A stretch of DNA of 13,447 bases from positions 1 through 13,447 of the forward strand of contig DFHZ01000040.1 of assembly GCA_002371985.1 (NCBI GenBank). Direction: 5' to 3'. Under the pieces are notes generated by a model, which ran no database searches, was not told the DNA's origin, and was given only the letters and a program-made list of their open reading frames with translations. Source of the stretch: Ruminococcaceae bacterium UBA3710. GTDB taxonomy: Bacteria; Bacillota; Clostridia; Oscillospirales; Acutalibacteraceae. Below, piece after piece: positions 4,674 to 13,447 of the stretch. Positions within the stretch are counted from its first letter, which is position 1, and every line of letters starts with the position of its first letter. The position numbers and the translations under genes were made by a program.

Positions 4674-4689
4674 AAACAGATAAAAAATT

Positions 4690-4720
4690 GGGCTTCCTGA
4701 TGGGAAGCTCATTTTTTTTT
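4690..4720 (+). terminator. Rho-independent terminator of the BspA-like gene
   Basis: GGGCTTCC (4690-4697) pairs with GGAAGCTC (4703-4710) across a 5-base loop. That gives eight pairs, one of them G-T. A single A and nine Ts follow (4712-4720). A run of As just before the stem could make it act in both directions, although no gene converges from the right. It ends the unit 16 bases after the stop codon. Confidence 0.88.
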
Positions 4721-4986: not shown

Positions 4987-5295
4987 ATGGTTAATTTTGG
5001 CACAGTACTGAAAAAATTGCGTACACAATCAGGAATGTCTCAAAGGCAGCTTGCGGAAAAATTGGGCGTTACGAAGTCGACCATCAGCTATTATGAGCTG
5101 TCTGAACGCACACCGTCTCCCGATATAATAATAAAAATTGCAAATATTTTTCATGTTTCTACGGATTATCTTCTGGGTAGGGATACAAAGATTGCTTTGG
5201 ATGTCAGCGACCTGCCGCACGAGGATGTGGAGTTGGTGGGCAGTTTTGTGGATGTGCTGCGCAAGAAAAACCAGCAAAACGACATCACCGAATAA
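4987..5295 (+). CDS. XRE (Cro/CI-type) HTH transcriptional regulator
   Basis: DNA-binding protein of 102 residues. The HTH_3 domain covers about residues 7-61. The first helix of the motif starts SQRQLAEKLG, and the recognition helix is TKSTISYYE (29-37). The domain closes with the typical HVSTDYLLGRD. The tail (about 66-102) contains a short helical stretch (EDVELVGSFVDVLRKK) that may serve for dimerisation. An AAAAGAGGT Shine-Dalgarno lies just before the ATG. It is the first gene of the A+T-rich block and is 53 bases from the protease gene, so it probably controls the block and itself. No ligand or peptidase domain is fused to it, so the signal it reads cannot be told. It resembles small repressors found both in phage-like elements and as host regulators. 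Confidence 0.92.
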   Translation: MVNFGTVLKKLRTQSGMSQRQLAEKLGVTKSTISYYELSERTPSPDIIIKIANIFHVSTDYLLGRDTKIALDVSDLPHEDVELVGSFVDVLRKKNQQNDITE

Positions 5296-5348
5296 TTGTT
5301 TTAATCATTTTTAGCGAAAATAAAAATAATAAAAAAGGGTGTGTTATT

Positions 5349-6791
5349 ATGTTCTGTCCACAATGTGGCAATAAACTTCCTGATGATGCGCGTTTCTGCC
5401 CAAATTGCGGTTGTAAAATTGATACAAAGAACATCTACAATGTTCAGTCTAAACAGTATCAAACATTGCCGATTCAGCAAGTACAACCGGCAGCACCGGT
5501 TCAGCAAGTACAACCGGCAACAACGATTCAACAGGAACAACCTGAGCCTCAATTTTTTACGGGAACACAACCTATAGCCTCATCAACAAACGAAAATACT
5601 CAGTTAACGGTATCTCAAACAGAACCGGCAGAAGAAAAGAGCACCACAATATATGCTTGGGAGTTTTTAAAAAGCCTTGCAAGCAAGGATAAGATTGGAA
5701 TAGATATTTGGCTTCTGATAAATTTAGTGGTAATAATAGTTCCTCTTTGGGTATTATCAGGAAGTCCGGGAAGTTTGCTGTTTTCTCTGCCTATTTATTT
5801 GGTTTCGATCTGCCTTGCACTGTCTCCTGTGGGTGAAGCGATACTGAGACTTATAAATCACTGTAAATCCGTTGAGAAAAAAGATTATGCGAAGTATAAA
5901 GAAAGACTTACTCCGTTGTTTAATGAAGTGTATGAAAAGGCTAAAATAGTTTCTCCTTCCATATCGAAAAAAATTAGACTTTTTGTTTGTCAAGATCCAT
6001 CTCCAAACGCTTTTGCCACAGGCAGGAAGACTATATGTGTAACCGAAGGTTTGCTTGATTTAAATGATGAAGAAATCAAAGGTGTCTTGGCGCATGAGTT
6101 TGGACATATTGCCCATAAGGATACAGATATTATTCTTGTTGTTGCAGTAGGTAATATTTTCGTGAATTTGTTTTTGCTTTTGTGCAGAGCATTTATAAGA
6201 ATATTCTTTACATTTCCGCTTGAGGTTGCTTTGAGATATCACGACTTTTCGTTATTAGCTAATCTTGTACGTATTATCGACTATGGCTTTTTCTTTGCTT
6301 TGGCATGGATTTGGACAAAAATTGGCGTTCTTTTGTGTCTCCACTCTGGAAGAAAAGATGAATATAGGGCAGACCACTATGCAGTGGATATTGGATATCA
6401 TCAGCAGTTAGTGTATGTATTGAAAAAAATTGATGACGGCGATTATGCTAAACCCAAAGGGCTTTGGGCAAGCTTGAACGCAAGCCATCCTGACATACCG
6501 GACAGAATATCTTCCATAGAAGAGTATGCTTCAGAAAATATGACTGTCAGTTCTGAGGTTCAATCAATAAACATACAGGTACCATTAATAGATCGGTTGA
6601 CAAATAAACCTGTTGAAATAGATAAGTCACAGGTTATAAAAAGTCAGGTTTCTTTCTTTTGCTATAACTGCGGAAACAAAATAACTGCTGATAAAAAACT
6701 TCTTGAAACTACTCCGAACACAGTTTGTAAAAAGTGTAATAATATTCTTAATAATGAGTTGATAGTTGATCGTTTAAAAAATGAATTCTAA
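5349..6791 (+). CDS. Membrane M48 (HtpX/Ste24-type) metalloprotease with zinc ribbons at both ends
   Basis: Integral membrane zinc protease of 480 residues. Residues 1-22 form a zinc ribbon (C3/C6 and C17/C20). A Gln/Pro-rich linker follows, with a 27-bp repeat (about residues 42-68). Two hydrophobic helices at about 116-160 precede the M48 core. HEFGH at 249-253 supplies two zinc-binding His and the catalytic Glu250. E338 of EYRAD supplies the third ligand, with D342 as the family's usual partner. Two more hydrophobic stretches at about 258-290 and 305-330 lie between them, as in HtpX. The C-terminus is a second zinc ribbon (C438/C441 and C460/C463), which is not part of a normal HtpX. M48 membrane proteases degrade misfolded membrane proteins. 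Four helices would leave both ribbons in the cytoplasm. Family and catalytic residues are firm; substrate is unknown. The start has AAGGGTG upstream and begins directly with the ribbon, as in the paralogues. Confidence 0.92.
   Translation: MFCPQCGNKLPDDARFCPNCGCKIDTKNIYNVQSKQYQTLPIQQVQPAAPVQQVQPATTIQQEQPEPQFFTGTQPIASSTNENTQLTVSQTEPAEEKSTTIYAWEFLKSLASKDKIGIDIWLLINLVVIIVPLWVLSGSPGSLLFSLPIYLVSICLALSPVGEAILRLINHCKSVEKKDYAKYKERLTPLFNEVYEKAKIVSPSISKKIRLFVCQDPSPNAFATGRKTICVTEGLLDLNDEEIKGVLAHEFGHIAHKDTDIILVVAVGNIFVNLFLLLCRAFIRIFFTFPLEVALRYHDFSLLANLVRIIDYGFFFALAWIWTKIGVLLCLHSGRKDEYRADHYAVDIGYHQQLVYVLKKIDDGDYAKPKGLWASLNASHPDIPDRISSIEEYASENMTVSSEVQSINIQVPLIDRLTNKPVEIDKSQVIKSQVSFFCYNCGNKITADKKLLETTPNTVCKKCNNILNNELIVDRLKNEF
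5374..5413 (+). repeat. 40-bp segment identical to 10335-10374 (copy 1)
   Basis: Forty bases within the N-terminal zinc-ribbon codons of the M48 gene are identical to those in the gene at 10310. They encode LPDDARFCPNCG and flanking bases. Flanking codons differ, including third positions, so identity is sharply bounded. This suggests recent duplication or gene conversion of the ribbon module. Confidence 0.9.
5471..5551 (+). repeat. Three 27-bp tandem repeats in the Gln/Pro-rich linker of the M48 protein
   Basis: Units at 5471-5497, 5498-5524 and 5525-5551 each encode nine residues of the form (I/V)QQ(V/E)QP plus three more. The first two share a long exact core (TTCAGCAAGTACAACCGGCA); the third is diverged. 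In-frame units of this kind can expand or shrink, changing the tether between the N-terminal ribbon and the protease. Confidence 0.85.
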
Positions 6792-6806
6792 TGATATGGT
6801 GATAGT

Positions 6807-8003
6807 ATGAAAAGTTGTATAAATTGTGGTAACCAGATGGAAGACCATATGCGATTTTGTATATGTTGCGGATCAGATAACGATATAGGGTCAATATTGA
6901 ATAACAATTTTTTTGAAAACAAAAAATCAAACGTTAAAAGTAAAATAAAGATAGTAATTATTGCTTTTGCTTTCTTGCTTTTCTTCGCCTGTATTGTGAT
7001 TGGAATCTTTTTTCTTAAAGAGCCAAAATCTTTAGCACAGACAGATGAACATGAATACAAATCAGCATACGTTAAATTGTTGTATTCAATTATACAAAGT
7101 AATGGTGAATACCTTGATGATATAGATTATATGTGCTTTGGAACATTTAACCTTGATAACGACGGTGTGCCAGAGTTAATGGTAAATTATTCAAATGCAA
7201 GCTCATATTTTACAGAAATTTATTGCTATTCCAACAACAAGGCAAAAAGTGTCGGAAAGTTTGCAATAAATGCAAGACCTTACCAGAGTTCAAACGACGA
7301 GGCATATTTTATTTTTGTACCTGAAGCAGGGATACTTAATGAAATGGTTACGTCAAGTGATGAAAGAATAATATATGAGACTTTATATAGTTATAAAAAA
7401 GGTAAAGCAAATAAAATTTGTAAATTTACAGAATATAAATCAGGGTCAATTTACTATATTGACGATAAACGTGTTACGCATGAAGAATATGAGAACAAAT
7501 ATAGTAAATATGTACCGACCGAATTTGATCCAAAAGGCGCTTTTGATGATGACTATATATATGATTATATGTATGAACTTACGCAGGAGGGAATAAGTGA
7601 GTTCTATTTGGAAAAAGAAGAGAGTGTTACCCCGTCAGAAATGTCTGACAAACCCACAACTACAGAAAGGCCAACTGATAATTATACTACAACAAATGTG
7701 TATAATAATGTTCCTCCGGAATTACAGCAATATACAAACAGATTAGTTTACGAGGGCAAAATGTACAGGATTACGCTTCAAGAAGATGATTGGTACATAA
7801 ATTGTCGCTCATCACCCCAATTAATAGATAAAGAAAGAGTTGATAATAACATTATTGGAAAAATAAAACATGGTACAGAAATATTTGTGGAATACATATG
7901 TGACGAAACCTGGGTCGTTTTTAAAAATGACGGCAGATATGTCTTTTCTTCGTTATATGCAGCAAATGATCCGAGTGAACGGAGACTTATGGAACCTTGC
8001 TGA
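6807..8003 (+). CDS. Zinc ribbon-TM protein with Asp-rich loop domain and C-terminal SH3-like domain
   Basis: Membrane-anchored protein of 398 residues. The N-terminal zinc ribbon has C4/C7 and C18/C21. A Lys-rich stretch and one TM helix follow (about 49-70), so by the positive-inside rule the ribbon is cytoplasmic and the rest extracellular. The first ectodomain has the calcium-loop-like DNDGVPEL (117-124), related to DINSDGIDEL in the protein at 10310, and ends with VTHEEYENKYSKY. A Thr/Pro-rich linker (about 275-300) leads to a bacterial SH3-like domain at about 315-390 (NCRSSPQ, IIGKIKHGTEIFV, TWVVFKNDGRYVFSSLY). Such domains often bind peptidoglycan. The ribbon-TM-ectodomain layout recalls TcaA-type Gram-positive proteins. 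The gene lies 15 bases after the protease gene with only a weak GGTGA Shine-Dalgarno, which suggests translational coupling. Exact function unknown. Confidence 0.8.
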   Translation: MKSCINCGNQMEDHMRFCICCGSDNDIGSILNNNFFENKKSNVKSKIKIVIIAFAFLLFFACIVIGIFFLKEPKSLAQTDEHEYKSAYVKLLYSIIQSNGEYLDDIDYMCFGTFNLDNDGVPELMVNYSNASSYFTEIYCYSNNKAKSVGKFAINARPYQSSNDEAYFIFVPEAGILNEMVTSSDERIIYETLYSYKKGKANKICKFTEYKSGSIYYIDDKRVTHEEYENKYSKYVPTEFDPKGAFDDDYIYDYMYELTQEGISEFYLEKEESVTPSEMSDKPTTTERPTDNYTTTNVYNNVPPELQQYTNRLVYEGKMYRITLQEDDWYINCRSSPQLIDKERVDNNIIGKIKHGTEIFVEYICDETWVVFKNDGRYVFSSLYAANDPSERRLMEPC

Positions 8004-8114
8004 AACAATTTTTTTAATTAAGCAAGATCCGATGTATTAATAAAAAAATACTTTTAAAAATACAAGATCAATAGACTCGATAAAAAATTTTAAAATACAA
8101 GTGAGGGAAATAAT
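8004..8114. other. A+T-rich spacer with no gene or clear terminator
   Basis: The longest gap inside the cassette (111 bases). It contains two near-copies of TTTTAAAAATACAAG (about 8052-8066 and 8091-8103, the second one base shorter). It ends in a GTGAGGG Shine-Dalgarno for the next gene. No stem followed by a T-run is present, so read-through is plausible. An internal promoter cannot be excluded. Confidence 0.5.
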
Positions 8115-8867
8115 ATGTACAAAAACATCGGTAAGAAAATCAAGGCGCTTGCAGTGATTTCGTTTATTATCGGCGCGGTAGCGTCGATCGTGGGAGCAAT
8201 TGTTTTATTTGTTCTTTCCCAAGAATGGGGTGCGCCCGAGGAGGTGTTAATAGCATCAGGAATAATGCTGATAATTATCGGGCCGCTGGTTTCATGGATA
8301 GGTAGTTTCCTGATATACGGTTACGGCGAACTTGTGCAAAGGACTATAAACATAGAGGAGTTTGTAAAAATAGAATATTTTAAACCGGATCAAACACAAA
8401 AAAATAATACAACAACTTTCCCAAAAACAACAAGTCAGTCAAACATAGCAAATACAAATAAAGTGTCTGTTAAAAAAAATACAGGGGTTGAATCTAATAG
8501 ACCGCAAGAAAACAAACCGAAAACGCAAAAAACAGAAAATGTCATTTCTGATAAACCGTTGCAAAACGAGTCTTCTGGTCAAGAAAATGTAAATATTTAT
8601 TCATATACCGATCAAACAAAAACTCCGGTTCAAGAAAGCATAAGTAGTAAGCAAGAAATTTTGTCGTCAAACGAAGTACCAGTTCAAGTTCCGGTTAAAC
8701 CGGTTGCTCCAACTTGCAAAGAAATCAAATTCTTTTGTACAAACTGCGGTCATAAAATCAATACTGATTCCCTGGCCTTGACAACCTATTCAGTTACAGT
8801 TTGTCAAAACTGCAAAAAATCTATAAACAACCAGTGGATAATTGAACATTTTGCCCAAAAGTCATAG
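8115..8867 (+). CDS. Two-TM membrane protein with C-terminal zinc ribbon
   Basis: Protein of 250 residues with two hydrophobic helices (about 11-35 and 43-68) ending IYGYGELV. A long polar linker rich in Lys, Gln, Asn, Thr and Ser follows (about 85-195). The C-terminal zinc ribbon has C208/C211 and C230/C233. Both ends should be cytoplasmic. The ribbon has the same CxxC-18-CxxC spacing as the C-terminal ribbon of the M48 protein, and the flanks also match (IKFFCTNCGHKI against VSFFCYNCGNKI; INNQWIIEHF against LNNELIVDRL). The two-helix N-terminal part resembles small uncharacterised clostridial membrane proteins, a recollection I could not test by search. I infer that it shares a cytoplasmic partner or assembly surface with the protease. 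No enzyme motif is visible. Confidence 0.8.
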   Translation: MYKNIGKKIKALAVISFIIGAVASIVGAIVLFVLSQEWGAPEEVLIASGIMLIIIGPLVSWIGSFLIYGYGELVQRTINIEEFVKIEYFKPDQTQKNNTTTFPKTTSQSNIANTNKVSVKKNTGVESNRPQENKPKTQKTENVISDKPLQNESSGQENVNIYSYTDQTKTPVQESISSKQEILSSNEVPVQVPVKPVAPTCKEIKFFCTNCGHKINTDSLALTTYSVTVCQNCKKSINNQWIIEHFAQKS

Positions 8868-8872
8868 GTTTG

Positions 8873-8880
8873 AAAGGGTG
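8873..8880 (+). promoter_or_regulatory. Shine-Dalgarno deciding the start of the PPC-like protein
   Basis: AAAGGGTG lies six bases before the ATG at 8887. It supports this ATG over the upstream TTG at 8842, which lacks a comparable site and would place 15 polar residues before the signal peptide. Confidence 0.75.
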
Positions 8881-8886
8881 TATATT

Positions 8887-10272
8887 ATGAAAAAACTGTT
8901 TAAGTTTATTTGCGGTGCAGTTTTCAGCGCGATGTTAATTTGTCTTTTTTGCATAACAGCGAATGCGTTTTCGGAAAAAGAATATAACGAAGAGATTGAA
9001 GCAGCAAATTATATACCGATTAATGAAACCGTATATGCAACATATGATTCTTCAAGATACATAGATAGGGATTATTTTAAATTTACTTTGCCGGAAGATG
9101 GAACAATTTCGGTGACAATGAATCATGCTTATCGCTCATACATGTCATATATGCATTTTTCGCTGTCTCTTGATGGTGAAGCAAAAAATATAATATTTAG
9201 TTACAATTTTCCATGGTCTGCTGAAACATCTACATCAAATAGAATAGGTTTAAGAGCAGGAACTTATTATTTGATTTCGTGGTTCGGTGCAGATAATGAA
9301 GATATACCATATCAGTTTACATTAAACTATACTCCCGATAAACGATTTGAACTTGAACCAAACGAATCATTAAAAAGTGCTACGGAAATGCCTGTAAACG
9401 TTGAATTTCACGGAATGACAAAGATGAATGATAATGATTTCTATGCGTTTTCAATTCCGAATGATGGTGTAGTGTCTTTTACTTTTAAACAACCTTATAA
9501 TGATAGAGACTTCAATACCAGCATGCAGTTGATGGCTTATGACGGGACGGCGGAAACACAATATGAAAATTATTATTTTGGAAGTGCTTCTGAAACAAAA
9601 ACCACTCAAAAAATAGGACTGAAGGCTGGAAAATATTACTTGAATATTTCCAATCCATCATACTTAGGCTCAACGAGTAGTTTTGAATACAGCATAAAAG
9701 TGAATTTTGAACAATCTGATAATTGGGAAAAGGAAAAAAATGAAAACTTAAAAGCGGCTACCTCTATGGCTATAGGTGAAAAATATTTTGGTACCATTTC
9801 TCGGGGAGATTTAGATTTTTACGAGTTTTCTTTGCCTGAAAATAGTGCCATATCCATTCGCTTTTCCCACCAATATTATGACGATTCGTTTAAAGCTGTG
9901 ATGGAAATATTAGCCTACGACGGAACATCAGAAACTGCTATAGGCAACTATAATTTTATTAATTCATCAGAATCAACTTTAACCGAAAAACTCAGACTGG
10001 ATGCAGGTACCTATATTATCAAATTGGAAACAGATCGTTATGATTCTTATGAATACAATTTTGTTGTTGAATCAGATAAAAGTACTGAAGAAAAAACTTA
10101 CGAAAACATATCAGAAACCATAAATGATATTGTTGAAGAAAAAAACACACAACTCCTCACAGAAGTATTATCACCAGAAAAAAGCAAAATTGATTTTATC
10201 CCAATAGCTTTAATTGCAATAGGTGTGTGTGGGATAATAGTGTTTATAGTAATTGTAAAAAAACGTGTTTAA
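8887..10272 (+). CDS. Secreted, tail-anchored protein with three PPC-like beta domains
   Basis: Exported protein of 461 residues. The signal peptide is residues 1-27 (MKKLFKF, then a hydrophobic core ending ANA). Three related units of about 110 residues follow, at about 47-148, 157-275 and 285-397. Each runs through the pattern DxDxYxFxLPxDGxISxxF, then LxAGxYYL. Examples are RDYFKFTLPEDGTISV with LRAGTYYL, NDFYAFSIPNDGVVSF with LKAGKYYL, and LDFYEFSLPENSAISI with LDAGTYII. This is the look of the bacterial pre-peptidase C-terminal (PPC) domain, here without any peptidase. A C-terminal helix (about 438-456) ending KKRV should anchor the protein with the domains outside; no LPXTG motif precedes it. 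The gene starts 19 bases after the previous stop, so it is probably co-transcribed. It is the only cassette member after the regulator without a zinc ribbon. Possible roles are binding wall polymers or presenting substrates to partners; this is inferred. Confidence 0.8.
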   Translation: MKKLFKFICGAVFSAMLICLFCITANAFSEKEYNEEIEAANYIPINETVYATYDSSRYIDRDYFKFTLPEDGTISVTMNHAYRSYMSYMHFSLSLDGEAKNIIFSYNFPWSAETSTSNRIGLRAGTYYLISWFGADNEDIPYQFTLNYTPDKRFELEPNESLKSATEMPVNVEFHGMTKMNDNDFYAFSIPNDGVVSFTFKQPYNDRDFNTSMQLMAYDGTAETQYENYYFGSASETKTTQKIGLKAGKYYLNISNPSYLGSTSSFEYSIKVNFEQSDNWEKEKNENLKAATSMAIGEKYFGTISRGDLDFYEFSLPENSAISIRFSHQYYDDSFKAVMEILAYDGTSETAIGNYNFINSSESTLTEKLRLDAGTYIIKLETDRYDSYEYNFVVESDKSTEEKTYENISETINDIVEEKNTQLLTEVLSPEKSKIDFIPIALIAIGVCGIIVFIVIVKKRV

Positions 10273-10309
10273 TGGTTAAAAATAATCAGAAATAAAATGG
10301 AGTGTTCCT

Positions 10310-11224
10310 ATGTTCTGTAAAAATTGTGGAAATCAACTTCCTGATGATGCGCGTTTCTGCCCAAATTGCGGTTGCAGCAACAGCGCATCAAATATCCCAA
10401 ACATTCAGCAGACACAGTCTGCGCCGGTGTTTGATCAACAGACTTCCGGCTATGGTTATGCACAACATTATAACAGGCAAAATAGTCTGCAACCTCAGTG
10501 TGAAAAAAAGAAATTACCAAAAATACTTTTCATTGCTTTTGGCTCAGTAGCAGCGGTTGTGATACTGATAATAATTTTGGCAGTCGTATTTTCAGGAAAA
10601 AGCAGCAGAACAACATACCCGACTGCTGTATACAAGCCTGTTGATCAGTACAGCGATACAGTTCCCGATCATGATTATACTGATACTGATGCAGATCTCG
10701 GTACAAGCTATTCACCAGAAACTGATGCGCCGATCGATAGTCCTCAAAAGACTTCTCTTGATTTATATTATCCTACGATTAAGAATTACGGCAAAAAGCG
10801 CGCTGAACATGAGATTGAAATGGGTCGTGAAGCGGAAATCCCAAAATATAGATATGCGATAAAAGATATAAACTCCGATGGTATAGACGAGCTGATAATT
10901 GATGAAGAATTCGTCTATGATGACGATGGTACAACCGTTCAGGATCATAGCATACAAGCAATATACACTTTGGATGGAGATAAGCCGGTAGATTTGTTCT
11001 CAATGGGCGAACACGGTAGCTATACCATAAGTTCAGACGGATACTTCATTTTTTCTTATCATGACATAACAATAGAAAAACTCGTTGGTACAGAGTTGGT
11101 TTTAGTGGCGGAAAGCGAACGCTTAGATTGGGAAAATTATGAAAACGAGCGTGATAATTTCCTTAAAAATAATGGAGTGTCTACAAGGGAAATGATATTC
11201 AACTTCACAACTTATAACGGGTAA
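10310..11224 (+). CDS. Zinc ribbon-TM protein with Asp-rich loop ectodomain
   Basis: Membrane protein of 304 residues. The N-terminal zinc ribbon has C3/C6 and C17/C20. A short Gln-rich linker, a KKK cluster and a TM helix (about 71-95) follow, which predicts a cytoplasmic ribbon. After an acidic Thr/Asp-rich stalk comes an ectodomain with DINSDGIDEL (186-195), an EF-hand-like or VCBS-like loop, followed by strands and a helical end (WENYENERDNFL). The same order (DNDGVPEL, then EEYENKYSKY) occurs in the protein at 6807, so these two ectodomains appear homologous. This one lacks the SH3-like domain. The Shine-Dalgarno is GGAG at 10299-10302. The ribbon codons are a mosaic: 27 bases match the gene at 11287 and the next 40 match the protease gene. 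Function unknown; a calcium-dependent wall sensor or binder is a guess. Confidence 0.8.
   Translation: MFCKNCGNQLPDDARFCPNCGCSNSASNIPNIQQTQSAPVFDQQTSGYGYAQHYNRQNSLQPQCEKKKLPKILFIAFGSVAAVVILIIILAVVFSGKSSRTTYPTAVYKPVDQYSDTVPDHDYTDTDADLGTSYSPETDAPIDSPQKTSLDLYYPTIKNYGKKRAEHEIEMGREAEIPKYRYAIKDINSDGIDELIIDEEFVYDDDGTTVQDHSIQAIYTLDGDKPVDLFSMGEHGSYTISSDGYFIFSYHDITIEKLVGTELVLVAESERLDWENYENERDNFLKNNGVSTREMIFNFTTYNG
10335..10374 (+). repeat. 40-bp segment identical to 5374-5413 (copy 2)
   Basis: Second copy of the identical ribbon-coding segment, nearly 5 kb from the first. It overlaps by one base the block 10309-10335, which is identical to 11286-11312. The ribbon exon-like unit is therefore assembled from two differently shared pieces. 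Confidence 0.9.
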
Positions 11225-11226
11225 AA

Positions 11227-11245
11227 ACACTTTGGTTAAAAGTGT
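11227..11245. other. Short hairpin between the last two zinc-ribbon genes
   Basis: ACACTTT (11227-11233) and AAAGTGT (11239-11245) are perfect reverse complements around a 5-base loop, directly after the stop at 11224. No T-run follows on the + strand, so it is not a standard terminator. It could stabilise or process the transcript, or be chance. Confidence 0.4.
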
Positions 11246-11286
11246 AATAATAAAACAAAAACAATAAATAAAAAGGAGTTATTATT

Positions 11287-12681
11287 ATGTTCTGTAAAAA
11301 TTGTGGAAATCAGCTTCAGAATGGTATGCGTTTTTGCTCTAACTGCGGTTGCGATAACGGCGCTATAAGCGACCCGAACGTTCAACCCGCACAGTATCAG
11401 GCAAGTCAATCGCCCCAAAAGAATAAAAAGACAGGGATCATTGTAGGTGCTGTTGTAGGTGGCTTGATAATTATCATCTTGCTTGCAATCTTGATCGGCG
11501 GCAACAAGAAACCGTCAAACTCTAACGAGAATAATACATCTGTCAACAACAATGTCCTTGCAACGCCAGGCGATGATACAAATACGCAGGAAAACGTATG
11601 GAAACCTGCCGCATATCTTTCATCAGATTATCAATCCGGTCAAGTACAAATTGACGGTGTAGTATACGGTGATTTGCCGATAAAAGGATCTGATTTTATC
11701 AAGCAAGGCTGGCAACTCACAAGCAAATCGTACGCAGATAAATTGATAGAGCCGAATAATTACAGTCAAGTGGGGTTGTCTAATGGAACTACTGAGATTA
11801 CAGCCCGCTTTATGAACTACACAGACGAACCGGCATCATTAGATAATTGTTATATTGTGTCCCTCTTTAATTCTGATTGGCCGGGAACACCAATTGGGAC
11901 AATCGTTCTTCCCGGTGGACTGACATTAAATACATCCAGCTATGAGAATGTGATCGAAAAATGGGGACAACCCGAGTACGATTATGTCGGCAAGGGTGAG
12001 TCGAATTTTCTTAATTATTATATTGGCAACTATGATGAGATCTACAAGTATGAATTAGAGTTTGATAATAATAACATTTTAACGAAATTTACCCTTATGA
12101 ATTATAATAAACCTTCTTATATTGCTCCTCAGCAATCTGCCGGATCAAACAAAGACACAAATGCGTCTTACAATGAAAACACTTTTCTTGATAATAATGA
12201 AACGCCAAACAACAGTGCTGATACGACAGATTATATCAATGTATCTGCACTTGATAAAATTGAAGCAAATGATACGTGTCCTGTGAAAATTACCGGGAGT
12301 GAGATCGTTAAAGATTACTATAAAGGCCAACTTGTGAATATTGGGGAAGTCGGAAATGATGCATGCATTTTCAATATTTCAAACAACAGCGGTTCAACTT
12401 TAAATAAAGTGGTATTTCTTGCGGTTGCATATAATTCGAACAATAACCCTATGAAGATAGGCGGAACTATCACTTTCTTTGGCGATGATAAAAATGTTCT
12501 TCAATTCACAACAAAAGATAACACAATAAAGGCTGGTGACACTTCAAAAGTCGGCGTGAGGTGTGATGGCAGCAGCATCTATGGCACTCGGTCAATCGTA
12601 TATTCATATACGACGGCAGACGGTGTAGAGCATATAAACAATAAAGCAAAAGAATGGTATAAAAATGTTTATATGGATTGA
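11287..12681 (+). CDS. Zinc ribbon-TM protein with two-part ectodomain
   Basis: Membrane protein of 464 residues. The zinc ribbon has C3/C6 and C17/C20. A KNKK cluster and a glycine-rich TM helix follow (about 51-71), and an Asn-rich stalk. The first ectodomain (about 112-280) contains YENVIEKWGQPEYDY (219 on) and then beta strands (YKYELEFDNNNILTKFTL). A helix ending in WGxP before a short sheet resembles the SmpA/BamE-like fold common in Gram-positive lipoproteins. A second Asn/Thr-rich linker leads to a C-terminal beta domain (about 317-464: CIFNISNNSGSTLNKVVF, VAYNSNNNPMKIGG). That domain looks like an Ig/FxLYD-type module in which backbone rather than catalytic residues are conserved. 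The start has AAAAAGGAG upstream. It is the last gene of the A+T-rich block. No enzyme signature; its role is unknown. Confidence 0.8.
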   Translation: MFCKNCGNQLQNGMRFCSNCGCDNGAISDPNVQPAQYQASQSPQKNKKTGIIVGAVVGGLIIIILLAILIGGNKKPSNSNENNTSVNNNVLATPGDDTNTQENVWKPAAYLSSDYQSGQVQIDGVVYGDLPIKGSDFIKQGWQLTSKSYADKLIEPNNYSQVGLSNGTTEITARFMNYTDEPASLDNCYIVSLFNSDWPGTPIGTIVLPGGLTLNTSSYENVIEKWGQPEYDYVGKGESNFLNYYIGNYDEIYKYELEFDNNNILTKFTLMNYNKPSYIAPQQSAGSNKDTNASYNENTFLDNNETPNNSADTTDYINVSALDKIEANDTCPVKITGSEIVKDYYKGQLVNIGEVGNDACIFNISNNSGSTLNKVVFLAVAYNSNNNPMKIGGTITFFGDDKNVLQFTTKDNTIKAGDTSKVGVRCDGSSIYGTRSIVYSYTTADGVEHINNKAKEWYKNVYMD

Positions 12682-12689
12682 GTAAAATG

Positions 12690-12709
12690 GTTGTATATCG
12701 TTGTATATC
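12690..12709 (+). repeat. 10-bp tandem direct repeat at the cassette edge
   Basis: GTTGTATATC occurs twice in a row (12690-12699 and 12700-12709). It lies nine bases after the stop of the last cassette gene and immediately before the point where Ig-like coding sequence of higher G+C begins. It could be a footprint of insertion or deletion, or a chance slippage product. Confidence 0.75.
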
Positions 12710-12710
12710 A

Positions 12711-12881
12711 AAGACACATAACGGAAACCTCAAAGGTCTCAAGTCCGGTTCCGCGACCGTTACTGTCACCGTCAGGGACGATCAGGGCAACACGGTTCAA
12801 GATACCTGCAAGGTCAAGGTGGGCTTAGCCGTCTGGCAGGTGCTTATCAAGATATTCCTGTTCGGATGGATATGGTATTAA
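12711..12881 (+). pseudogene. 5'-truncated C-terminal remnant of an Ig-like (Big_2) surface protein
   Basis: The frame running through NGNLKGLKSGSATVTVTV and RDDQGNTVQDTCKVKV is the last half of a bacterial Ig-like domain. Its tail is WQVLIKIFLFGWIWY, a hydrophobic end of the kind seen on clostridial surface proteins. Compare DKNGNVTNKG and VRDKDGNVIAQ in the 980-residue protein. Homology starts near 12714. Upstream the frame contains nothing recognisable, no signal peptide and no RBS, though the frame stays open to about 12678. The piece is clearly richer in G+C (35 of 60 bases at 12721-12780) than the gene before it. I read it as the 3' end of a gene whose front was lost. It might instead be a short membrane peptide, which is less likely. 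Confidence 0.82.
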
Positions 12882-12919
12882 GCGGAAAAATATTTGCTGA
12901 TTTATACATTATTATAATC

Positions 12920-12926
12920 AGGAGGT
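12920..12926 (+). promoter_or_regulatory. Consensus Shine-Dalgarno of the Listeria-Bacteroides-repeat protein
   Basis: AGGAGGT lies 11 bases before the ATG at 12938. It fixes the start of a gene that opens directly with a signal peptide. Confidence 0.85.
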
Positions 12927-12937
12927 AAAATATCAAA

Positions 12938-13447
12938 ATGAAAAAAATAGTCTCTCTTGTGCTTGCATTGCTTATGATGACATCTGTACTGTTTTCTGCG
13001 CCGATTTCGGCAAACACAGCGTCGCTCGACAATGCGGTAAACGAAACAAGAACAAACGCAAACGAGGAAAGCGGGTTTATGGCATTTATCCATGCCTTAT
13101 TCTACTCAAAACTGACCTTTGATACCGATGGCGGATCAGATGTACCGCCTCAGTATGCCTTTAAACTTTTTGGTAAGTTTAAAACCCCTGCCAATCCCAA
13201 AAAAGAAGGATATACATTTGCAGGCTGGGAGCCATCTTTGCCAACCCGAGCACCGCTTTTCGGTAATGTTACTGTTAAAGCAAAATGGGAAGCCAAAACT
13301 TATCAAGTGAAATGGGTTGTCGATGGGAAGACATATTCATCGGCGGAAGTGGAATACGGAGCAAAAATAACCAGACCCGCAGATCCGAAGAAGGAAGGCT
13401 ATTCCTTTGTAGGCTGGTCACCCGATGTTGCGGAAAAGATGCCGGCA
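12938..13447 (+). CDS. Secreted protein with Listeria-Bacteroides (InlB B-type) repeats, 3'-partial
   Basis: Open frame of 170 codons that leaves the window. It begins with a Sec signal peptide (MKKIVSLVLALLMMTSVLF, cleavage near SAPISA-NT). After a short spacer come repeats of the beta-grasp InlB-B / Flg_new type. The first runs KLTFDTDGGSDVPPQY, PKKEGYTFAGWEPSLP, VKAKWEA. The second starts YQVKWVVDGKTYSSAEVEYG and runs PKKEGYSFVGWSP. Such repeats occur in many copies in secreted clostridial proteins and act as stalks or adhesion modules; what follows is not visible. Higher G+C than the cassette and similar to the 980-residue protein, so it belongs to the surface-protein neighbourhood rather than the cassette. 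Start supported by a consensus Shine-Dalgarno. Confidence 0.9.
   Translation, partial: MKKIVSLVLALLMMTSVLFSAPISANTASLDNAVNETRTNANEESGFMAFIHALFYSKLTFDTDGGSDVPPQYAFKLFGKFKTPANPKKEGYTFAGWEPSLPTRAPLFGNVTVKAKWEAKTYQVKWVVDGKTYSSAEVEYGAKITRPADPKKEGYSFVGWSPDVAEKMPA

Follow-up and report, generated by a model that had tools for sequence, protein, structure and literature searches.

An M48 protease gene among zinc-ribbon envelope genes in a clostridial cassette: the ribbon as a possible docking tag

Introduction

Among characterised systems, the nearest relative of the locus described here is the llmg_0524-0525-0526 operon of Lactococcus lactis, in which, according to the passages cited, two membrane proteins have a zinc-binding N-terminal motif of the form CX2CX10CX2C, and of which one gene, llmg_0524, has been linked to cell-wall integrity (PMC4628341). 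A second case is TcaA of Staphylococcus aureus, which the same passages describe by a cysteine motif, one transmembrane (TM) helix and a long extracellular part (PMC4628341), and which, in the cited part of another account, alters the cell wall and the sensitivity to agents that attack it (PMC10328498). Our subject is a stretch of 13,447 nucleotides (nt) of DNA, from here on the window, from Ruminococcaceae bacterium UBA3710 (assembly GCA_002371985.1, contig DFHZ01000040.1), and in it a cassette of seven genes at 4987-12681, in which an HtpX-like M48 membrane protease is encoded together with envelope proteins that carry cysteine ribbons of this kind.

With the lactococcal operon the cassette shares the spacing of the ribbon, which is identical in the four N-terminal ribbons found here; as described in the cited passages, however, that operon contains no M48 protease, PPC protein or Asp-loop protein, and a repeated leader is not mentioned in them (PMC4628341). 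The layout of TcaA, that is, ribbon, TM helix and ectodomain, recurs in genes 6807, 10310 and 11287 (genes are named by their first position), but the NCBIfam TcaA model gives gene 10310 a score of 15.2 against a cut-off of 550, and there is no TcaA match in the others. HtpX and other M48 proteases resemble the window protein in the M48 domain, the HExxH motif and the TM helices, whereas the latter bears two added zinc ribbons and misses all the NCBIfam HtpX equivalog cut-offs (best 61.9 against 355), for which reason its sequence places it in the M48 subfamily and not in HtpX proper. Finally, three arrays of the same bacterial family (L141, L142 and L172) likewise have neighbouring ribbon-TM genes with differing ectodomains, although there is no M48 gene in the inspected stretches.

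Zn_Ribbon_1 proteins are widespread in this clostridial family, and one characterised ribbon-TM operon was found in the literature. No description of a repeated ribbon leader, or of an enrichment of ribbons beside M48, was found in the literature as far as its titles and abstract openings go, nor did these show any related work on HtpX or TcaA with a zinc ribbon; both features are new as far as is known, and both can be tested.

Results

A ribbon leader repeated before unrelated genes

The original prediction, made from the letters of the window alone, placed a ribbon in five of the six genes downstream of the regulator, and Pfam together with the cysteine motif bears this out, with two ribbons in the protease itself. 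In genes 6807, 10310 and 11287 the N-terminal CX2CX10CX2C is followed by a single TM helix and an ectodomain. Three genes of the cassette begin with a direct repeat (D1, three copies of 125 nt), each copy starting 16 nt 5' of the start codon, so that a ribosome-binding site (RBS) plus the ribbon, about 80-125 nt in all, recurs before three unrelated bodies, those of the M48 protease, of an Asp-loop protein and of a WGxP/DUF5780-like protein (Table 1). Between copies 1 and 2 the identity is 87.7% over 81 nt and includes an exact run of 40 nt at 5374-5413; since the copies differ from one another, they are not assembly duplicates.

Over the 54 nt of the ribbon, likeness is 0.889 between the M48 and Asp-loop genes, 0.796 between the Asp-loop and DUF5780-like genes, and 0.685 between the M48 and DUF5780-like genes. 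The control consisted of 2525 pairs from different loci, drawn from 72 open reading frames (ORFs) with an N-terminal ribbon outside the window's own genome, in which orthologues were kept, making the comparison conservative; its median is 0.52 and its 99th percentile 0.70. As only 1 and 7 of these pairs reach the first two values, two of the three D1 pairs look like local copies. When parts of six further contigs from this genome (five carry ribbon genes, one a two-TM gene) were compared by blastn, the leader gave short and weak matches only. A ribbon copied in this manner from gene to gene suggests a tag that would bring the proteins together.

The protease and its two ribbons

The M48 protein is matched by Pfam Peptidase_M48 (1.7e-21, 77.3 bits against a cut-off of 20.3) and, at its N-terminus, by Zn_Ribbon_1 (2.3e-8). 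Its HEFGH motif and E338, which we take to be the downstream glutamate that serves as a zinc ligand, are invariant across 10 aligned sequences. Among solved structures, Ste24p (4il3) and further chains of CAAX proteases are closest in sequence, and an HtpX homologue (3cqb) ranks lower. The predicted structure has a mean predicted local distance difference test score (pLDDT) of 74.3 and shows the two ribbons folded, at block means of 83-84 and 72-88, and the linkers 30-100 and 402-430 are of low confidence; at 5469-5549 a 27-nt repeat stands three times in the Gln/Pro-rich linker, as in linkers of variable length. The C-terminal ribbon is like that of the two-TM protein (41% over 44 amino acids, aa).

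A tree was built from 195 of 196 M48 domains, and in it the window protein pairs with P0002, to which it is 61% identical, within a clade of eight, and the ribbon is absent from the other seven members, whose sequences were inspected. The ribbon is present in 47 rows of the tree and at least 11 changes of state are needed, 6 of them forced by well-supported branches; ribbons appear, on this tree, to have been gained or lost repeatedly among M48 relatives.

Ribbon genes beside M48 genes in other clostridia

For a matched background, 50 clostridial M48 loci were taken, Zn_Ribbon_1 was searched across the entire genome of each, and the best 150 rows were placed; non-clostridial loci and five divergent ones were left out, the null assumes an even placement of genes, and the bins of metagenome-assembled genomes (MAGs) may be mixed. 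Eleven of the rows are the M48 gene's own ribbons, and one more (L090) is an M48's second ribbon. Within 10 kb of M48 there are 11 further rows, which correspond to 10 ribbon genes at 6 of the 50 loci, where 0.70 rows would be expected from flanks that make up 0.51% of the DNA; among these best 150 rows, ribbon genes next to M48 are therefore about 14 times over-represented (10 genes against 0.7 rows expected). If L102 and L108 are counted as one event, five loci are left, with p 8e-4 for at least five and 9e-5 for at least six. Near M48 there are two ribbon genes at L047, two each at L102 and L108, one at L035, where it lies upstream, and one, divergent and with no TM helix, at L045; at L039, an M48 gene with six C-terminal ribbons is followed by a gene of 1162 aa and then by three ribbon-TM genes. 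Ribbon neighbours were found for 5 of 22 ribbon-bearing and 1 of 28 ribbonless M48 genes, which is not a significant difference (Fisher p 0.075).

Two further arrangements were seen around M48 relatives. At L101:11432-17124 an M48 gene is followed by three ribbon proteins, of which two read, to our eye, as kinase-like with a TM helix. At L014 and L069 a relative with an N-terminal ribbon lies in a cluster of an FtsK/SpoIIIE ATPase, small proteins, a kinase, and PP2C and VWA proteins, and its N-terminus resembles, by eye, the start 'GIS..DI..AALGDFDD' of P0003-P0007 and P0009.

Table 1. Features of the cassette and of its left boundary
Feature	Positions	Strand	Remarks
Terminator-like hairpin	4689-4711	+	10-pair stem, T-rich tail; 3' of upstream leucine-rich repeat (LRR) gene; left operon bound
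XRE-type helix-turn-helix (HTH) regulator, 102 aa	4987-5295	+	Pfam HTH_3
D1 copy 1	5333-5457	+	RBS and N-terminal ribbon of M48 gene
HtpX-like M48 membrane protease, 480 aa	5349-6791	+	HEFGH 249-253, E338, four TM helices, N- and C-terminal ribbons 3-20 and 438-463
Ribbon-TM protein, 398 aa	6807-8003	+	N-terminal ribbon, one TM helix, Asp-loop region, C-terminal domain originally called SH3-like
Two-TM protein, 250 aa	8115-8867	+	Two TM helices, C-terminal ribbon
PPC-domain surface protein, 461 aa	8887-10272	+	Pfam PPC 1.8e-9; hydrophobic segment/TM helix at each end; no ribbon
D1 copy 2 (reference)	10294-10418	+	RBS and ribbon of Asp-loop gene 10310
Ribbon-TM-Asp-loop protein, 304 aa	10310-11224	+	Zn_Ribbon_1 4.4e-8, one TM helix
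D1 copy 3	11271-11395	+	RBS and ribbon of last, DUF5780-like gene
Ribbon-TM protein, 464 aa	11287-12681	+	N-terminal ribbon, one TM helix, ectodomain of WGxP type and DUF5780-like

The cassette in other genomes

In the counts that follow the window's own genome is included. The M48 protein was found in 1 of 70 genomes of the genus and 7 of 200 of the family (E 1e-20), and the stretches inspected around the other six family genes contain no full-length second member of the cassette. The two-TM protein occurs in 15 and the PPC protein in 19 of 200 family genomes, gene 6807 in 5 of 200 family genomes and in 1 of 394 genomes of the order (with at most four candidates scored per genome there), and gene 10310 in 27 of 300 genomes, almost all through its ribbon end only. 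In the match lists of these five genes (the last gene, 11287, was not searched), two members were matched on one contig in a single genome, G014, both in one protein.

In named genomes, 256 M48 relatives were found, and the loci of the 80 best were taken. The co-occurrence of at least three members in M48 and two-TM neighbourhoods, by which the original prediction proposed to recognise a system, failed to appear, with none of these 80 loci uniting three members and the protease found in one of the 70 genus genomes; a conserved seven-gene system is thereby rejected, no other inspected locus having three members. By distance bins, 7 of 76 M48 loci have a ribbon-TM gene within 5 kb, and the other 4 of the 80 gave no called M48 ORF. 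Partial likenesses to single members do occur. At L114 a lipoprotein-like protein (12143-12997) resembles the WGxP region of gene 11287, with 29.5% identity over 132 aa; the M48 gene there is divergent and lies 1.4 kb upstream of it, and between the two is a gene that looks recombinase-like by eye. At L091 a PPC-like protein is encoded directly upstream of M48 (24% over 130 aa, a weak match), at L049 one lies two genes downstream (weak, over 69 aa), and at L072 one is 7.6 kb from M48 (24% over 330 aa). A ribbon-like TM protein follows M48 at L110, and at L054, a single case, an XRE regulator (51% over 99 aa) stands divergently beside an M48 gene with a C-terminal ribbon.

Discussion

The reading that we prefer, with a probability of roughly 0.4, is that of a lineage-specific operon in which the ribbons would constitute an interchangeable cytoplasmic docking tag around the HtpX-like M48 protease. 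The operon would unite this membrane protease with single- and double-pass envelope proteins; the ribbons would bind zinc, as well as each other or a common partner; the protease would be held beside the ribbon-tagged proteins, which it might trim or clear, or together with which it might work, and the ectodomains of the latter would meet the wall or ligands from outside. The ribbons of the single-pass proteins would face the cytoplasm, because a basic stretch precedes the TM helix (by eye), and an HtpX-type topology would presumably place those of the protease on that same side. The proposal in the original prediction that ribbons couple the proteins to the protease is to some degree favoured by the leader repeat, by the likeness of the C-terminal ribbons of the M48 and two-TM proteins, and by the accumulation of ribbon genes beside M48, and it loses ground in that the literal cassette is not conserved. 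The docking tag is further favoured by the lack of a ribbon in the nearest relatives of the three bodies behind the D1 leader, by the repeated changes of ribbon state on the M48 tree, by the folding of both ribbons in the predicted M48 structure, and by the recurrence of the C-terminal domain of gene 6807 on ribbon-TM proteins within ribbon-TM arrays. Were there such a docking tag around the protease, a tag visible in the sequence would predict membership of a complex for many unknown envelope proteins, which is directly testable.

Several results weigh against this docking tag. The exact cassette is not conserved, and a new conserved module is, from the genomes compared, unsupported. Within the cassette, the 0.685 of the M48/DUF5780-like pair is equalled or exceeded by 49 of the 2525 control pairs, the ribbon of gene 6807 remains outside the D1 set (0.56-0.65), and the PPC protein has no ribbon at all; furthermore, the ribbon of the two-TM protein is not special to the locus, since its relatives often bear C-terminal ribbons, which in one full-length relative (P0128, 45%) is the same and in others a different one. 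Elsewhere, 44 of the 50 clostridial loci have no ribbon gene near M48 among the 150 rows listed, and an M48-like HExxH protein is found in none of 16 ribbon loci of the window's family, chosen from ribbon-match rows, although the rarity of M48 in the family makes this weak evidence. In 7 of these loci, ribbon genes that encode one or two TM helices form 11 adjacent pairs, and the leaders of these were not significantly more alike than those of pairs from other genomes (p 0.31; for the first 90 nt, p 0.04), with leader scores of at least 100 in 4 of the 11 adjacent and 11 of 119 other-genome pairs. That ribbon arrays generally share leaders, at which 10 pairs including the window had hinted, was not confirmed on the 16 loci, two of which overlap the earlier set.

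Nearly as likely as the docking tag is that ribbons are generic terminal caps for folding or orienting membrane proteins, and that the locus is an ordinary accessory surface array in which 5' ends recombine through their similarity, the M48 gene having taken a neighbour's expression signal and ribbon in this way, with no shared complex. Ribbon proteins are everywhere: 57 of 60 family genomes have Zn_Ribbon_1 matches, as many as 29 apiece, which in itself speaks against a tag reserved for the protease; among the listed rows we count at least 11 of these 60 genomes in which ribbon genes lie two or more together inside 5 kb, arrays with no M48 in the inspected stretch are common, and at a locus without M48, L162, unrelated bodies are likewise joined to alike leaders (leader score 301, body 37), while at L039 both leaders and, in part, bodies are alike. 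A generic cap, however, does not lead one to expect ribbon genes to be over-represented near M48 genes, nor ribbons to be repeatedly gained and lost in M48 itself, and the capture of a 5' leader cannot account for a C-terminal ribbon common to the M48 and two-TM proteins.

The docking tag could be carried one step further, to zinc ribbons as an address code, in which an M48 hub would recruit unrelated surface proteins by local copying of RBS plus ribbon, through which lipoproteins would become ribbon-TM clients; this we consider rather unlikely. The nearest relatives of the Asp-loop and DUF5780-like bodies are apparently lipoproteins: ribbons are lacking, and a lipobox can be recognised by eye, in the two good ectodomain relatives of 10310-11224, both of one genus, as well as in the three proteins that align with the whole body of the DUF5780-like one (43-45%). 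The matches to the Asp-loop body of 10310-11224 are in two genomes of one genus, where, on our own reading, they adjoin an acetate kinase gene. One of them, a lipoprotein-like protein of G014 (L148:5738-6994), matches the Asp-loop region of 6807-8003 as well, with 24% over 196 aa.

HtpX degrades misfolded membrane proteins, and the locus might accordingly be one of envelope quality control without any coupling by ribbons, the surface genes being co-induced; the intact catalytic motif and the retained membrane architecture of M48 fit with this, but the repeated ribbon leaders and the ribbons at both ends of the protease would be left unexplained, and we hold it to be improbable. Least probable of all is a chance or recent assembly of no joint function, a low-GC stretch or mis-binned contig among BspA-type surface genes. 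In its favour, no other inspected locus has the whole cassette, the window is a single whole contig (G000:C49) of a 1.70 Mb MAG in 191 contigs, the cassette abuts an apparently truncated gene end at 12688-12879, and its GC content at third codon positions (GC3) is 0.25-0.37, the HTH gene apart, against 0.45-0.48 in the flanking genes. Against it, the gaps are short, the frames open and with no terminator-like sites between them, the leader copies differ, and genes on other pieces of the same genome span a GC3 of 0.17-0.59, so that the cassette is no outlier.

Operon layout, other proteins and surroundings

The run of seven same-strand genes with short gaps and no internal terminator, as originally reported, was found again: all seven ORFs of the plus strand lie at the predicted coordinates, the gaps are of 53, 15, 111, 19, 37 and 62 nt, and a plus-strand scan found no forward terminator-like site in them, so that they probably form an operon. 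The regulator gene was possibly not an original member, given that its GC3 (0.476) is near that of the flanking LRR genes and not that of the rest of the cassette. At L022:2590-4064, on another contig of the same genome (C124), a ribbon-TM protein of 344 aa is divergent from an XRE regulator that is 33% identical to the window's, and on two more (L027 and L028, contigs C121 and C36) the start of a ribbon gene is identical, possibly one gene at contig ends.

The ribbon of gene 6807 has the CX2C-X10-CX2C motif and a weak Pfam match only (E 0.009). The C-terminal domain of its product, earlier labelled SH3-like, has no Pfam match under that label; it has two good relatives (60% over 124 aa at L141 and 40% over 160 aa at L142), both of which, in two of two genomes, are ribbon-TM proteins within arrays of three ribbon-TM genes. 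For the PPC gene the start is better placed at 8887, where the ATG is preceded by GAAAGGGTG; of the three PPC-like copies first proposed for it, one stretch passes Pfam PPC, and a number of three is not confirmed by Pfam. In gene 11287 Zn_Ribbon_1 is just under its cut-off (24.4 against 25), as DUF5780 is below its own (22.5 against 28.2), and a fold-based identity was not used for this protein, the mean pLDDT being 57.1 and the best PDB match 5tta, a hypothetical protein of C. difficile, at E 3.3e-3.

Two further origins were tried and rejected. For anti-phage defence, none of the six non-HTH proteins has a PADLOC match, and there are only generic HTH matches. As to phage or plasmid cargo, M48 is matched in 4 phage and 35 plasmid records, in every case at less than 60% identity and over less than 80% of the query, and the PHROGs matches outside the HTH gene are mostly ribbon pieces and weak partial M48 matches.

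An ORF at 12688-12879, 6 nt 3' of the last cassette gene, resembles by eye the 3' end of a gene for a surface protein with Big domains, and since it looks like the truncated end of a surface gene, an edge of recombination is suggested there. At the other end of the window, the gene at 7-1578 encodes a protein of 523 aa in which the domains of an extracytoplasmic function (ECF) sigma factor are joined, through one TM helix and then a linker rich in Thr and Pro, to an LRR region of BspA type, possibly a membrane-bound sigma factor with a surface sensor.

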